Below, in pieces: positions 3,275 to 27,343 of a stretch of 27,343 bases of DNA. Both the position numbers and the translations under genes were made by a program. The notes under the pieces are model-generated. The model saw only the letters and a list, made by a program, of their open reading frames with translations, was not told the origin of the DNA and searched no databases. How positions within the stretch are numbered: position 1 is the first letter of the stretch; the number at the start of each line of letters is the position of its first letter. The stretch comes from a virus, in the IMG/VR virus record IMGVR_UViG_3300030101_000167, positions 1 to 27,343 of that record, one strand, 5' to 3'.

Positions 3275-4463
3275 TAAATATAACGCACTATTTTCATCAG
3301 ATGCTAGATACTTTATCATAACAGGTGGTAGGGGGTCAGGTAAGTCATTTGCTGTAACTGTATTTCTTACATTACTTACAATGACAAAAGGCATAAGGGT
3401 TTTGTTTACTCGTTATACTATGACATCTGCAAGACTATCAATAATACCTGAGTTTTTAGAAAAGATTAATCTATTAGGTTATGATAATATCTTTAGTGTA
3501 AACAAAGCAGAAGTTGTTAACTTAGGTAATCAGTCAGATATACTATTTAGGGGTATTAAGACATCAGCAGGTAACCAAACAGGTAATCTAAAGTCATTGA
3601 CTAATGTATCTAATTGGGTACTAGACGAAGCAGAAGAATTAGTAGACGAAAATATATTTGATACTATTGATTTAAGTATTAGAGAAAAAGAAATACAAAA
3701 TAGAGTAATATTAATATTAAATCCTGTTACTAAAGAACATTGGATATACAGACGTTTCTTTGAAGACAAAGGCGTACAAGCAGGTTTTAATGGCGTTAGA
3801 GACAATGTATGTTATATACACAGTACATACCTAGACAACAAAGATAATCTCTCTACGAGTTTCCTAGAGCGTATTAAGGCTATAAAGCATAAGAATATTA
3901 AAAAGTATCAGCATTCTATAATGGGTGGTTGGTTAGACAAAGCAGAAGGTGTAGTATTTGAGAATTGGAGAATTGGTGATTTTAATCCTGATGGACTACA
4001 GACATCTTGTGGTATGGACTTTGGATTCTCAGTAGACCCTGATAGTCTTACAGAAATAGCAATAGACAAGAAACAAAAGAAGATGTATCTTAAAGAGCAT
4101 ATTTATAAGAATGGTTTAAAGTCACACGACTTAGCACAACTTGTATTAGACAAAGTAGGTAATAAGTTAATTATTGCAGATAGTGCAGAGCCTAGACTTA
4201 TAGCAGACTTAAAGCATTTAGGTGTAAATATAAAAGCAGTAAAAAAAGGTACTATAGAAAGTGGTATAACTAGAATGCAAGACTATGAGTTAATAGTATC
4301 ACCTGAATCTACTAATATTGCTAAAGAACTAAACAACTATGTGTATGCAGATAAAGGCTCTAAATTATACGTAGACAGTTATAATCACGCAATAGATGGA
4401 ATCCGCTACAACGTAATTTACCACTTAGATAATCTAAACTATGGTAAGTATTTTATACAGTAA
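3261..4463 (+). CDS. terL: Terminase large subunit (CTG start proposed)
   Basis: The packaging motor protein has an ATPase and a nuclease domain. From the proposed start it is 400 residues. Walker A (GGRGSGKS) is at residues 22-29, Walker B (WVLDEAEEL) near 120, and the nuclease domain carries GMDFGF near 252, IADSAEP with a conserved Asp, and a final Asp in NHAIDGIRY. This fits the PBSX-type Terminase_3 family. The first ATG (3381) lies after Walker A, so it cannot be the true start. The frame is open from 3258, just after a TAG at 3255. CTG 3261 gives a start of xKLNSKYNALF, the usual N-terminus in relatives. The overlap with terS suggests coupled translation. Confidence 0.9.
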   Translation: MKLNSKYNALFSSDARYFIITGGRGSGKSFAVTVFLTLLTMTKGIRVLFTRYTMTSARLSIIPEFLEKINLLGYDNIFSVNKAEVVNLGNQSDILFRGIKTSAGNQTGNLKSLTNVSNWVLDEAEELVDENIFDTIDLSIREKEIQNRVILILNPVTKEHWIYRRFFEDKGVQAGFNGVRDNVCYIHSTYLDNKDNLSTSFLERIKAIKHKNIKKYQHSIMGGWLDKAEGVVFENWRIGDFNPDGLQTSCGMDFGFSVDPDSLTEIAIDKKQKKMYLKEHIYKNGLKSHDLAQLVLDKVGNKLIIADSAEPRLIADLKHLGVNIKAVKKGTIESGITRMQDYELIVSPESTNIAKELNNYVYADKGSKLYVDSYNHAIDGIRYNVIYHLDNLNYGKYFIQ

Positions 4464-4477
4464 ACTAAATATCAACT

Positions 4478-4496
4478 TTTTCTATTATATATTATG
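4478..4496 (+). promoter_or_regulatory. Late-promoter-like element on the start codon at 4494
   Basis: CTATTATATATTATG ends exactly at the ATG of the chaperone gene. TATTAT (4483-4488) lies five bases before ATG, so transcription from it would begin at or next to the start codon. A T-run precedes it (CTTTTTC), as in the copy at 17837. Confidence 0.5.
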
Positions 4497-5135
4497 AAAG
4501 TCAATATCAAGAAAGAAGGTAAGACTAAAAACTACAAATTAATAAGTAAATGGGCAGATGTCACTTTAGAAAAGTGGATTAAACTCGTAGATTTACAAAA
4601 AGGCAGTAAGACAAAGGAAGCAGAAGAAACAATAGCAGCATTGTCTAATATTCCTAAGAAGTTAATTAAGGAATTATCAATAAGAGATGTGGCTGTTATT
4701 ATGGATAGATTAGGTGACTTACAAGATAAGCAAAGTAGTTCTTTAAATAAGATAGTTGAATTGGAAGGTAAGGAGTATGGTTTTCACCCTGACTTAGACT
4801 CTATTACTTTAGGTGAATATGCAGATATAGAAACATTTATTAAAAATGGTATAGAGCAGAATATGCCTGAGATAATGGCTGTACTGTTTAGACCAATAGT
4901 AGAAAAGAAGAATAATCTATATACTATTGAAGCCTATGATGGTAATATAAGAATGAGAGCAGAAGAATTTAAAAAGATGTCAGCACAGCAAGTACAAAGT
5001 TCTTTGGTTTTTTTTTGGAGTTTAGGCAACGAATTGTACAAGAGTATTCAATTGTCTTCAATGGAAATGCTGAAGGAAATGAAGACGCTATTACCACAGA
5101 ATCATTCGCAGAAAAGTGGGGTTGGTTCGGTGTGA
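4494..5135 (+). CDS. Tail assembly chaperone, G-like product
   Basis: The 213-residue product of the unshifted frame. It is mostly helical and acidic, with a LDxITLGEYADIE segment mid-protein and a hydrophobic helix (SSLVFFWSLGNEL) near residues 169-181. This layout resembles the G-type tail chaperones of siphoviruses, which hold the tape measure protein during tail assembly. A second frame overlaps its 3' end and carries a T-like domain reached by a -1 shift. Unlike in most phages it does not sit next to the tape measure gene, which is 7 kb downstream. The call relies on the overlapping-frame layout and helical character rather than on a strong motif. Confidence 0.6.
   Translation: MKVNIKKEGKTKNYKLISKWADVTLEKWIKLVDLQKGSKTKEAEETIAALSNIPKKLIKELSIRDVAVIMDRLGDLQDKQSSSLNKIVELEGKEYGFHPDLDSITLGEYADIETFIKNGIEQNMPEIMAVLFRPIVEKKNNLYTIEAYDGNIRMRAEEFKKMSAQQVQSSLVFFWSLGNELYKSIQLSSMEMLKEMKTLLPQNHSQKSGVGSV
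5009..5015 (+). promoter_or_regulatory. -1 ribosomal frameshift site (T TTT TTT)
   Basis: In the chaperone frame the codons are GTT TTT TTT TGG, so T TTT TTT lies in the X XXY YYZ register of a -1 slippery heptamer. The -1 frame is open from 4973 to 5272, and I found no other good slippery heptamer in the overlap. The run is nine T in total (5008-5016). Confidence 0.65.
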
Positions 5136-5272
5136 TGTATAGATTGACAAATGGTGAGATAGTAAATTTAGAAAGGATAACAAATTTAAGTTTGTTAGAA
5201 TGCTTAACTTGGTTAAGTTATGAAACAGATTTAGATTCACAAAATAAAGTAAAATTAAATGATAGCAAATAA
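5015..5272 (+). CDS. Tail assembly chaperone, T-like extension (-1 frame)
   Basis: This frame has no good start of its own and is most simply read by a -1 slip at 5009-5015, giving a 259-residue G-T fusion (174 residues of G, then 85). The extension carries FAEKWGWFGVMYRLTNGEI followed by helices (LSLLECLTWLSYETDL), a pattern seen in T-like domains of Bacteroidota phage chaperones. In lambda, the GT fusion contacts the tail tube protein while G binds the tape measure. The alternative is a sequencing error in the T9 run, which would make one long gene. The next gene overlaps its end by 14 bases. Confidence 0.6.
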   Translation: MEFRQRIVQEYSIVFNGNAEGNEDAITTESFAEKWGWFGVMYRLTNGEIVNLERITNLSLLECLTWLSYETDLDSQNKVKLNDSK

Positions 5273-12486: not shown

Positions 12487-13902
12487 ATGGCGAATAAAAC
12501 AATAATAGAAGCAGAGATTACATCTAATGTTGGTGATGTTACTAAAGATGTAGATAAACTAGATAAGTCAACTAAAGAAGCGTCAGGTGGTTTTAAAGGT
12601 ATGGGTAAGTCTATACGAGGTATAGGTACTGCACTAAAAGCGGCAGGTATTGGTTTAATAGTAGGATTGTTTGCAAAATTAGCAGAAGTATTTACACAAA
12701 ACCAAAAAGTAGTAGATACATTTAATACTGCTATGGAATTTTTGAGTATAACTTTTAATGACTTTTTTAAATTTATACAAAACAACTTAAACACAGCCAC
12801 AGGATTTTTTGACAAGATATTTGGTAATACAGCAGTAAAACAAGTATTAGAATTTGGTAAGACTTTAGGTATAGAAGTAATAACAAGAGTTAAAAATCTT
12901 ATACAGGGTATAGGTGGTCTAGGAAAAGCACTTATGCAAGTATTTAAAGGTGATTTCAAAGAAGCATTAGAAACATCTAAAGAATCATTATTAAATTTTA
13001 AAGATGCGGTTACAGGTAATACTGCTGAGACTATTATGATGGAACATCAAATAGTAAAAATAACAGATAAAATAAAAGATTATACTAAGGCTAATTTAGA
13101 TAGTGCTAAGGCATTAGTAGACGTAAGAAAACAAAGTGAACTAGCAAGAGTACAAGTGCAGGGCTTAATTGAAGAGTTTGACAGACAAGCAGAAAAACTA
13201 AGACAAGTAAGAGATGATGAAAGTAAGACTTTTCAAGAAAGAATAGATGCAAATAATGAATTAGGTGATGTGCTAAGAAAACAAGAACAAGAGATGTTGA
13301 AACTTGTAGAAATACAAATTAAAGCAGCACAATTAGATGTAGATAAAAATAATAGTTTAGAAAATCAAATAGCATTAGAAGAAGCATTAAATGAAAAGAA
13401 AGCGGTACAAGCACAAATAACAGGTTTTCAATCTGAGCAACTTGTAAATAACATATCACTACAAAAAGAACAAAAACAAGTAGCCTTAGATAATGTTACT
13501 GCACAACTAGATGCTTATAGTAGTCTAGCAGGGTCTTTAAGTGAATTAGCAGGAGAAAATAAAGCCTTAGCAGTAGCACAGGCTGTTATAGATACTTATG
13601 CAGCAGCAAATGGAGCATTAGCAGCAGGTAAAGGTACTCCTTTGGCTATGTTACAAGCAGCAGCAATAATTGTATCAGGTTTAGCAAATGTAAAAAAGAT
13701 AATGGCTGTAGATGTAGGTAGTGGTGGTGGTGGTGGTGTACCTTCAGCAAGTCCTGAAACTCCTGCTCCACAAATGTTAGGTGGCGCATTTACTTTAGGA
13801 GGTGGTGAACAACCAGAACCTTTAAAAGCCTTTGTAGTAACAGATGAAATGACTAACAGTCAAAATCAATTAGCAAACATAAGACGTAGAGCAACAATAT
13901 AA
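12487..13902 (+). CDS. Tail tape measure protein
   Basis: A 471-residue, mostly helical protein with the features of a tape measure. It has a Lys/Asp-rich start, a hydrophobic segment at about 45-70 (GTALKAAGIGLIVGLFAKLA), long coiled-coil stretches between about 190 and 350, and a second Ala-rich hydrophobic region (AVAQAVIDTYAAANGALAAG). A glycine run follows near 415-422. The C-terminal VVTDEMTNSQNQLANIRRRA resembles the end of tape measures in Bacteroidota phages. By the usual 0.15 nm per residue rule the tail would be roughly 70 nm. It lies after the tail-tip genes, an uncommon order. Confidence 0.8.
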   Translation: MANKTIIEAEITSNVGDVTKDVDKLDKSTKEASGGFKGMGKSIRGIGTALKAAGIGLIVGLFAKLAEVFTQNQKVVDTFNTAMEFLSITFNDFFKFIQNNLNTATGFFDKIFGNTAVKQVLEFGKTLGIEVITRVKNLIQGIGGLGKALMQVFKGDFKEALETSKESLLNFKDAVTGNTAETIMMEHQIVKITDKIKDYTKANLDSAKALVDVRKQSELARVQVQGLIEEFDRQAEKLRQVRDDESKTFQERIDANNELGDVLRKQEQEMLKLVEIQIKAAQLDVDKNNSLENQIALEEALNEKKAVQAQITGFQSEQLVNNISLQKEQKQVALDNVTAQLDAYSSLAGSLSELAGENKALAVAQAVIDTYAAANGALAAGKGTPLAMLQAAAIIVSGLANVKKIMAVDVGSGGGGGVPSASPETPAPQMLGGAFTLGGGEQPEPLKAFVVTDEMTNSQNQLANIRRRATI

Positions 13903-13922: not shown

Positions 13923-13940
13923 AATCTATTATATAATATG
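13923..13940 (+). promoter_or_regulatory. Late-promoter-like element on the start codon at 13938
   Basis: CTATTATATAATATG ends at the ATG of the next gene, with TATTAT (13927-13932) five bases before it. Upstream, after the tape measure stop, lies AAAATCAAATAAATAA, nearly the same as the sequence upstream of the scaffold element at 15376-15391. Confidence 0.5.
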
Positions 13941-14447
13941 CCCTGTAAAAAATGTAAAGATGGAAAATATAAGTATGGTAACACAGGAGAGTGTAAATAC
14001 TCTACTAAAGAAGCCTGTGAAAAAGCGAATCCTAAAAAATATAGTAAAATGAAACCAACACCATTAGGTAAGACGTATGAAGAATACGCAAAAGAATTAA
14101 AAGAATTTAATTTAAGTAAAGTTGAAAGAGTTGAGTTGGCTTTAGTTGATGATTTAGTTAAAAAATATGATAACATAAAATCAGAAGCAGATTCGCTTAC
14201 TTTAAAAGCAAGAAAAGCAGCACAAGAGTTAGATGAAGTATCTTCAAAATCAAAATCAATGTTAAAAGAAATTGCTGATGCACAAAAAATGGCAGATAAT
14301 ATATATAAGTCAGCAGAAGATTTAGGAGTAGGATTACCTAACGAAGCAGAAGTAGCAGTAAGACAAATAGATGCTTATAGAAGTGATATGTCTGAAGTAT
14401 CTTCAACTACTGCAAAAGCAAGTGATTTGATTTTTGGTTTATTATAA
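13938..14447 (+). CDS. Cysteine-rich N-terminus plus coiled-coil protein, 169 aa
   Basis: The first 30 residues hold a compact cysteine motif, CKKC at 3-6, then C19 and C27 in a Gly/Lys-rich setting (MPCKKCKDGKYKYGNTGECK). I have seen this type at the N-terminus of capsid-region proteins in flavobacterial phages, where it may bind zinc. The rest is helical with long heptad-like stretches. Its C-terminal 110 residues resemble the C-terminal part of the protease gene downstream (KVE.L.VDD..K.Y). A role in capsid assembly, as a scaffold-like or internal protein, is inferred from that likeness and position. Confidence 0.55.
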   Translation: MPCKKCKDGKYKYGNTGECKYSTKEACEKANPKKYSKMKPTPLGKTYEEYAKELKEFNLSKVERVELALVDDLVKKYDNIKSEADSLTLKARKAAQELDEVSSKSKSMLKEIADAQKMADNIYKSAEDLGVGLPNEAEVAVRQIDAYRSDMSEVSSTTAKASDLIFGLL

Positions 14448-14459
14448 AATTAATATAAT

Positions 14460-15377
14460 ATGAAAAACACAAAAATAGTAGAACTAGTAATAGAAGATGA
14501 TAACCAAGAGTTAGCAATTGATGCTATAAGTCTAGTAACTGCTCCTGCAATAGAGCAAGACTTTGTATTTTTTGGTAAAGAAAAAAACAATTTAACATTT
14601 GCTAAAGTAGATGAAGAAAAGCGTATGTTAGTTTCTCCTGCTTTAATACCTAATAAACACATATTTAGATATGACCCTAATACTGATTCGGATTATTATG
14701 TATATTTTTCAAAAGAAACAGTAAGAAGAGCAAGTGAGTTATACTTAAAACACAATAACCATCATAAAGCGACTTACCAACACCAAGACAGAGTGTCAGG
14801 AGTTCTAACAGTAGAGAGTTGGATAAAAGAGGGTGAACAGGATAAGTCAAAAATGTATGGTTTTGATTTGCCTAATGGTACTTGGTTTGTCAAAATGAAA
14901 ATAGAAAATGATGACTTATGGAACAAGATTAAGGAAGGAGAATTGCGTGGTTTATCTATTGAAGGATATTTTACTAACAAGTTTGAGCAAATGCAAAATA
15001 AAAAACCATCAGACTTAGAAATACTATCAGCACTTAATGAAATAATAAGAGAAAGCCAAAAACCTAAAAAGGTTGAGTTAGGTATGGTAGATGATATAAA
15101 TAAAATATATAAAGATGCACAAAAACTAAGTGCAGCAGCAGAAGGTAAGGGTTTAAATGATTTAAGAAAACTTACTTTAAAAGTAGAAAATGATTTTTTA
15201 CAACTTTCACGAAAAGCAGAAGAGGGATTAGAATTAATACAAAAAGCAGAAAAACAACTAAAAGAATTAGGTGTTGCAAAACCAAAAGAAATACAGGGAA
15301 TAGAGAATGTATTAAAGAGTTATGAAAATAATGCAGAAGATTGGATAAAAAGATTAGGAGCAGACCAATATAGATAA
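14460..15377 (+). CDS. Putative prohead protease, XkdF-like, with coiled-coil tail
   Basis: Residues 8-180 match the XkdF-type putative protease of phage capsids: AISLVTAPA at 22-30, a histidine-rich turn with H101, H102 and H108 before RVSGVLTVESW, and RGLSIEGYF at 163-171. By analogy to the S78 fold, a histidine of the first cluster and S166 could be catalytic, which is inference. Residues 190-305 form a coiled-coil extension resembling the C-terminus of the preceding gene, as expected for a scaffold-like delta domain. Prohead proteases cleave scaffold and capsid precursors. The scaffold and major capsid genes follow. Confidence 0.75.
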   Translation: MKNTKIVELVIEDDNQELAIDAISLVTAPAIEQDFVFFGKEKNNLTFAKVDEEKRMLVSPALIPNKHIFRYDPNTDSDYYVYFSKETVRRASELYLKHNNHHKATYQHQDRVSGVLTVESWIKEGEQDKSKMYGFDLPNGTWFVKMKIENDDLWNKIKEGELRGLSIEGYFTNKFEQMQNKKPSDLEILSALNEIIRESQKPKKVELGMVDDINKIYKDAQKLSAAAEGKGLNDLRKLTLKVENDFLQLSRKAEEGLELIQKAEKQLKELGVAKPKEIQGIENVLKSYENNAEDWIKRLGADQYR

Positions 15378-17181: not shown

Positions 17182-17748
17182 ATGGCGTGTACAGCATTAA
17201 CAAAAGGTAGAGGACTTGATTGTAATAGAATATCAGGTGGAATAAAATTTATTTATTTCGCAGTTTATGACCAAGTAACTTCAATACCAACAGCAAATGG
17301 TGAAATTACTGACTTAGAGATGGGAAGTAATAGTCTTTATAGATATACAATGCCTTTAGGTGTTGCAAGTCTTACAGATACTATTACAGGTTCTAGAGAA
17401 AACGGAACGATATTTTATACTCCAACAGTAAACATTATATTAAACAGATTAACAAAAGAAGACCAAAATCAGATAAAATTACTAGGAGCAACAAAAGTAA
17501 TTATATTTGCACAACTAAACCAAACAGTAACTGCTACAGGACACGATGTTATAGTATGTCTAGGTAGTGTTAATGGAATGGAATTAAATGCAGGAACTAT
17601 GGATAGTGGAGCAGCATTTGGTGATAGAAATGGTTACACTCTTACCTTTGACGGTTTAGAGCAGCAACCTTTCCAATTTGTGCCTGATTTTACTACCAAT
17701 CCATTTGATAATGGTGGATTTACATTAGGTGGTGTAGTATCTTCGTAG
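17182..17748 (+). CDS. Major tail tube protein
   Basis: A 188-residue beta-rich protein. It resembles tail tube proteins of Bacteroidota phages: LTKGRGLDCNRISGGIKFIY at the N-terminus, a central strand region (NIILNRLTKEDQNQIKLLGATK), and near residues 152-164 the YTLTFDGLEQQPF motif before a flexible tail ending in GG and SS. Tail tube subunits stack in hexamers around the tape measure protein. Its position right after the major capsid gene, flanked by a hairpin on each side, suits a highly expressed protein with its own transcript level. The call depends on motif memory. Confidence 0.65.
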   Translation: MACTALTKGRGLDCNRISGGIKFIYFAVYDQVTSIPTANGEITDLEMGSNSLYRYTMPLGVASLTDTITGSRENGTIFYTPTVNIILNRLTKEDQNQIKLLGATKVIIFAQLNQTVTATGHDVIVCLGSVNGMELNAGTMDSGAAFGDRNGYTLTFDGLEQQPFQFVPDFTTNPFDNGGFTLGGVVSS

Positions 17749-27077: not shown

Positions 27078-27343
27078 ATTAAAGAAAGAATTAGATAAGT
27101 GGTTTAGTCTTTATATAAGACTGAGAGATGCTACAGACGAAGGAATGGTACAATGTTTTACTTGCGGTAAGGTTGCACATTACAAAGATGGTATGCAGTG
27201 CGGACACTTTCAAAGCAGGAAACATCAGGCTACGAGATGGAATGAAGAGAATTGTCAAGTACAATGTGTAGGTTGCAATATGTTTAAGCAGGGTGAACAA
27301 TGGACATTTGGACTAAACTTAGATGCTAAATATGGTAGTAGTA
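27061..27343 (+). CDS. ninG: NinG-like recombination protein, N-terminal part (continues at 1-224)
   Basis: The gene starts at ATG 27061 and runs off the window end; because of the terminal repeat it continues at base 1 and stops at 224. This part holds the basic N-terminal helix and the zinc-binding residues CFTC (32-35), CGHF (47-50) and C65/C69/C72. The family acts on branched DNA in recombination. The last 99 bases here are the same as bases 1-99, so the gene should be counted once. Confidence 0.85.
   Translation, partial: MKSVSKLKKELDKWFSLYIRLRDATDEGMVQCFTCGKVAHYKDGMQCGHFQSRKHQATRWNEENCQVQCVGCNMFKQGEQWTFGLNLDAKYGSS
27245..27343. repeat. Terminal direct repeat, right copy
   Basis: Identical over all 99 bases to the start of the window, as checked base by base at both ends. 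The true unit length is therefore 27,244 bp. Confidence 0.95.

Follow-up and report, generated by a model that had tools for sequence, protein, structure and literature searches.

Ribosomal recoding has a textbook example in the G/GT frame change, whose mechanism is thought to be conserved across tailed phages. In lambda, one gene yields two C-termini by a -1 shift near its 3' end. The slip site is G GGA AAG, with 19 nt to the end of the frame-0 stop. The extension lacks a separate start, an obvious stimulator is absent, and the end of T overlaps the first part of the tape measure gene. Gene E of P2, which lies directly upstream of the tape measure gene, is extended to E+E' by a -1 shift on T TTT TTG, a heptamer with six T's and 22 nt to the end of the frame-0 stop. 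In PMC5009743, two C-termini obtained through a -1 shift were described as the hallmark of the tail assembly chaperone class, and the frameshifts described there are ribosomal, often without stimulators. Frames can also be joined by transcriptional slippage, which Baranov and colleagues judged very likely where every homolog keeps a run of nine A's or nine T's at the frame junction (PMC1088944). Conserved A/T runs between frames were given for Thermus dnaX (A9), Shigella mxiE (a U run) and IS elements with nine A's; such sites have a conserved extension and need no stimulator, and none of the sites reported there is a phage tail gene (PMC1088944).

The window, by which we mean the whole stretch of DNA analysed here, is a virus record of 27,343 bases. 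Because a direct repeat of 99 bases is present at its ends (1-99 and 27245-27343), the record suggests a complete, circularly closed genome of about 27.2 kb. The terminal repeat sits inside an ORF running across the window ends. No tRNA genes were found in the window. The record probably represents a small phage of marine flavobacteria. The features needed below are as follows.

3381..4463, plus strand: terminase large subunit (TerL), directly upstream of the frame-0 ORF (Pfam Terminase_3, 5.6e-27)
4494..5135, plus strand: frame-0 ORF, 213-aa G-like product (ORF call, relatives, phrog_32199)
5008..5016, plus strand: nine-T run, putative slippage site (sequence, run length in relatives)
5009..5015, plus strand: heptamer T TTT TTT, in register (X XXY YYZ register of frame 0)
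5015..5272, plus strand: -1 frame extension, 85 aa, which carries the conserved motif W-[GS]-W/Y and resembles T in position only
5015..5135, plus strand: doubly read overlap, 121 nt including the stop codon, both frames open
12487..13902, plus strand: tape measure protein, 471 aa (similar to P12024L gp50, E 1.5e-7)

The locus compares with the lambda and P2 genes in that a -1 extension without its own start would be joined to a single gene near its 3' end, and with P2 also in the T TTT TT-type heptamer. It shares with the transcriptional slippage sites a conserved A/T run between two frames and a conserved extension. It differs in a run of nine T's instead of the six of P2, and in the distance from the slip site to the frame-0 stop, which gives an overlap of 76-268 nt among the representative relatives described below; the doubly read stretch of the gene is also unusually long. 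The reading of the site in the initial annotation was borne out: frame 0 reads GTT TTT TTT TGG at 5007-5018, which places T TTT TTT at 5009-5015 in the correct register. In the -1 frame, a TAA at 4970-4972 is followed by an open stretch that starts at 4973 and closes with the stop whose last base is 5272. The two-frame reading after 5015 likewise stands, and extends over 5015-5135 when the stop codon is counted. It is the only run of at least nine T's on the plus strand of the window. An in-register heptamer alone is weak evidence, because 60 XXXYYYZ heptamers in register occur in 38 genes of the window. In an AlphaFold2 model of the frame-0 protein (mean pLDDT 82.6), a C-terminal helix at residues 164-199 spans the slip site; the extension modelled by itself reached a pLDDT of 55.9.

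From these sequences we infer that one gene would give two proteins. Most products would end at 5135 (213 aa), and a minority would shift to the -1 frame at the nine-T run and end at 5272, carrying about 174 shared residues and an alternative C-terminus of 85 residues. The switch would consist of slippage on the T run, with RNA polymerase adding one extra U as the slightly favoured route. By its architecture the pair would be of the G/GT type, in which the shared part would cover the tape measure, with the extension serving to recruit the tail tube protein; a candidate tube protein is encoded at 17182-17748. The frame switch at the T run and the chaperone-like role, taken together and apart from the choice of machine, are given a probability of roughly 0.8.

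An IMG/VR search with the frame-0 protein returned 105 related stretches, 80 of which were kept and formed, with the window, a first set of 81. T TTT TTT was in register in 81 of 81, and the extension lay in the -1 frame in 80, the contig of the 81st stopping just past the run. Further IMG/VR scans, independent of the T run, reached relatives down to about 30% identity, with 507, 554 and 590 related loci in separate scans. Four related loci came from a search of genome contigs, and among 395 genomes from the phylum of a Flavobacterium MAG the gene was found only in that MAG itself. Three MAG contigs labelled Euryarchaeota and Pseudooceanicola (L241, L242, L243) carry the gene at 52-70% identity to the window; these are probably misbinned phage contigs. 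The collection came to 400 loci with repeated contigs included, 398 of which matched the family HMM; the two without a match were L244 and L248, since only plus frames were read. Run length was counted in 397 of the 398, leaving out L081 (truncated upstream), and was at least nine T's in 397 of 397. De-duplication at <85% identity gave 158 representatives, 153 of them on contigs reaching the stop. The programmed -1 frame change and the slippery site named in the initial annotation hold throughout this set: T TTT TTT is in register in 158/158. The extension is 74-93 aa long in the 153 with the stop on the contig, and the frames are never fused. It had been supposed that a run of eight or ten T's would fuse the frames. 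Relatives with 10, 11 and 12 T's do exist; the four whose frames were read out, L302, L073, L279 and L108, all keep their extension in the -1 frame, and the difference therefore lies in substitutions and not in frame-fusing indels. The longest run, 12 T's in L108, is either real or an assembly error. The frame-0 protein matches the profile phrog_32199 (E 1.2e-10 for the window; 34 of 34 members).

The slip site and both frames beyond it bear marks of selection. Third-base T at codons 172, 173 and 174 occurs in 0.968, 1.000 and 0.981 of the representatives, compared with 0.00-0.70 in the other hydrophobic/aromatic columns tabulated, the exception being codon 188 (1.00), which lies inside the overlap; as judged from these comparisons, selection acts on the heptamer at its synonymous positions. 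For frame-0 positions 1/2/3, the nucleotide variability of.28/.18/.44 upstream of the run gives way to.19/.37/.36 past it, which is the periodicity of the -1 frame. The -1 frame also dominates the substitution pattern in the overlap, and the F and R directly after the slip are invariant (26/26). Past the run, 24-88 open codons precede the frame-0 stop (median 55), compared with 6 expected with the -1 protein fixed and with 2 codons for the third frame, and the long opening is individually significant (p<=0.05) in 94 of 153 representatives. The shortest frame-0 tails end at the end of the predicted helix 164-199 of the window protein. Because frame 0 is open far beyond expectation, both products, and hence both C-termini, appear to be used and under selection. 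Comparison among relatives thus supports the frame switch at the run, selection in two frames and a run never below nine. The third frame meets a stop within four codons of the run in 146 of 158 representatives, compared with 61% expected. An early stop there would truncate the products of transcripts losing one U; as support for the polymerase it was set aside, since the frame-0 Leu-Gly motif was left unfixed in the control and the representatives are related.

The cultured relatives found were the Nonlabens (Persicivirga) phages P12024L and P12024S only, at about 25-28% identity. Like the window, they have the TerL neighbour, the T9 site and a -1 frame running into gp41; unlike the reading proposed here, GenBank has two hypothetical ORFs, gp40-gp41, with no frameshift annotated. 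In P12024L gp41 (L158, 12423-12590) and P12024S gp39 (L159, 6351-6518) the -1 frame can be followed back to the T9 without a stop, and from its sequence each of the two is probably a frameshift extension's C-terminal half. The fusion has thus been missed in practice, with two ORFs annotated as unrelated hypothetical proteins. The window and P12024L have the gene order in common: TerL, two-product gene, neck/HK97-gp10-like gene, tail genes and tape measure. P12024L gp50, by which the window tape measure was recognized, matches the tape measure proteins of phrog_9483 (5.6e-12). The initial annotation had noted a separation of about 7 kb from the tape measure gene, and indeed this gene begins 7.2 kb downstream of the extension, unlike lambda, in which T ends at the tape measure gene, and P2. 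With 6.4 kb between the same genes in P12024L, the gap belongs to the group as a whole and is no artefact. At 471 aa the tape measure protein is very short, which would mean a short tail. Inspection by eye showed a similar motif in the neighbouring proteins encoded at 13938-14447 and 14460-15377, KVE-L--VDD with a helical stretch behind it; the second of these proteins matches head maturation proteases.

The frame relation could be questioned in two ways. Nine-base homopolymers are error-prone, and an assembly or sequencing error might have broken a gene that is in truth one ORF; the same frame relation in all 158 representatives, from independent metagenomes, and in the two cultured phages, together with a frame 0 open well past expectation, makes this explanation hardly credible, and it was rejected. 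Alternatively, the extension could be a separate protein begun in the -1 frame and coupled to termination of the first ORF, as in GenBank's gp41, which in P12024L/S opens with an ATG overlapping the gp40 stop. The profile phrog_38404 also spans the C-terminal part of the extension only, with a weak match (E 0.0056). Such an origin is very improbable given that 150 of 153 representatives have no ATG on the way from the slip to the conserved Trp, and 141 of 153 have none of ATG, GTG and TTG there, which agrees with the earlier claim that the extension lacks its own start; in addition, conservation of the -1 frame begins right at the codons that follow the run, and the heptamer is under selection at synonymous positions. 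The two-product gene may also be real and serve another role, for example as a packaging or neck factor beside the terminase. Of the 150 representatives whose contigs reach far enough upstream, 116 have TerL as the adjacent upstream gene, and P12024L keeps this neighbour too; the gene is not just upstream of the tape measure, as a G/GT-type gene is expected to be; and homology to chaperones is not seen. Among 34 members no Pfam TAC family was above cut-off (best Phage_TAC_7, E 0.012 in 1/34). Alignment of profiles by hhalign to lambda G and T and to P2 E and E' stayed under 1% probability throughout (P2 E' at 0.6%), so that the window gene has no detectable homology to either system. A fold search of the PDB returned 47 matches with E<=10, none of them at E<=0.001, VIA-align gave one row (Z 2.1), and a PDB sequence search gave chance-level chitinase-like matches only. 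Tail chaperone families are highly diverged, and a gene without profile similarity may still belong to them. BFVD contains models named tail assembly chaperone that are weakly matched (E 0.05 and 0.22), and with the Phage_TAC_7 match these lean, faintly, towards a chaperone. Against another role stand the two C-termini obtained by a -1 shift, the frame-0 ORF joined near its 3' end to a conserved extension without its own start, the gene order shared with P12024L, and the fact that no other candidate pair was seen. A role other than that of a chaperone is accordingly regarded as unlikely. The tail-assembly-chaperone assignment made in the initial annotation is thus kept on account of the two-product architecture and the genome context, while homology to chaperones, and a fold match to them at E<=0.001, were not detected; similarly, of the proposed T-like domain, the conserved W-[GS]-W/Y motif stands and a profile match to lambda T does not.

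As to which machine slips at the run, RNA polymerase is given an even chance, and the joint action of polymerase and ribosome is thought quite unlikely. Purely ribosomal -1 frameshifting, in which two tRNA-Phe would slip in tandem on T TTT TTT and the nine T's would come from a [VLI]FF[WY] motif, is a tentative choice with something like one chance in three. The heptamer is in register in every representative, and a nine-T run holds an in-register heptamer in any phase, so that the ribosomal model fits every case; P2 gene E, moreover, slips on T TTT TTG. Neither the second-base T of codon 172 (0.956) nor the first-base T of codon 175 (1.0) falls outside the range seen at other hydrophobic/aromatic codons. 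With flanking T's that are ordinary for such codons, conservation of the heptamer and of the protein could give nine T's without selection for run length, and the invariance of T9, taken alone as proof of such selection, is weakened by this similar T conservation elsewhere. P2, however, works with six T's, whereas no run of six, seven or eight was present among the 397 loci. Exhaustive IMG/VR scans for 8-T versions in the conserved context found family members at 0 of 86 and 0 of 109 places, compared with at least 118 family members among at least 119 places in a 9-T scan in the same context, one place being without a family HMM match. The middle T of codon 172 was lost in 7 of 158 representatives, all seven of which have a second-base T in codon 175, compared with none of the 151 keepers. 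Five of the seven have Arg at codon 172, and for these the heptamer itself needs the T of codon 175, so that compensation would be expected under the ribosomal model too. In the other two, L259 and L279, the heptamer is intact, yet a T was gained on the other side of the run, which regained nine or more. Long runs are also avoided elsewhere: in 724 other genes of these contigs, runs of at least nine T's numbered 0 against 5.7 expected and of at least nine A's 9 against 40.7, with shorter T runs also depleted (T8, 6 against 15.2; T7, 30 against 67.9). A stimulatory RNA structure downstream is common in -1 ribosomal frameshifts but is not obligatory; no such structure was detected downstream of the site (z +0.83 and +1.48 in the window, 0 pairs on 26 sequences, mean z -0.04, n=51). 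The site combines a T run of at least nine conserved at the frame junction with a conserved extension, as described for transcriptional slippage. Taken together, the rule of at least nine T's and the avoidance of runs point to slippage by the polymerase as much as by the ribosome, or more, although constraint on the protein accounts for much of the pattern. A sigma-factor-like protein is encoded at 595-1155 of the window (phrog_1740, E 0.0026; P12024L counterpart, E 0.003), and would be of interest if the polymerase does the switching.

What is new here, as far as the sequences tell, is a run never below nine T's in a G/GT-like two-product gene beside the terminase. For tail chaperone genes, transcriptional slippage was not found to be described in the literature searched. 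It is put at slightly under an even chance that flavobacterial-type phages, as a large and mostly uncultured group, rely on programmed slippage of the RNA polymerase for their tail-chaperone pair, with a run of at least nine T's as the obligatory site. The cultured P12024 phages allow the slipping machine to be tested directly. If the polymerase reading is true, the choice of frame would be written in the mRNA and would replace the ribosomal frameshift of lambda and P2. Being widespread and always keeping nine or more T's, the family would offer a natural test of whether the ribosome has been exchanged for the polymerase at this step.
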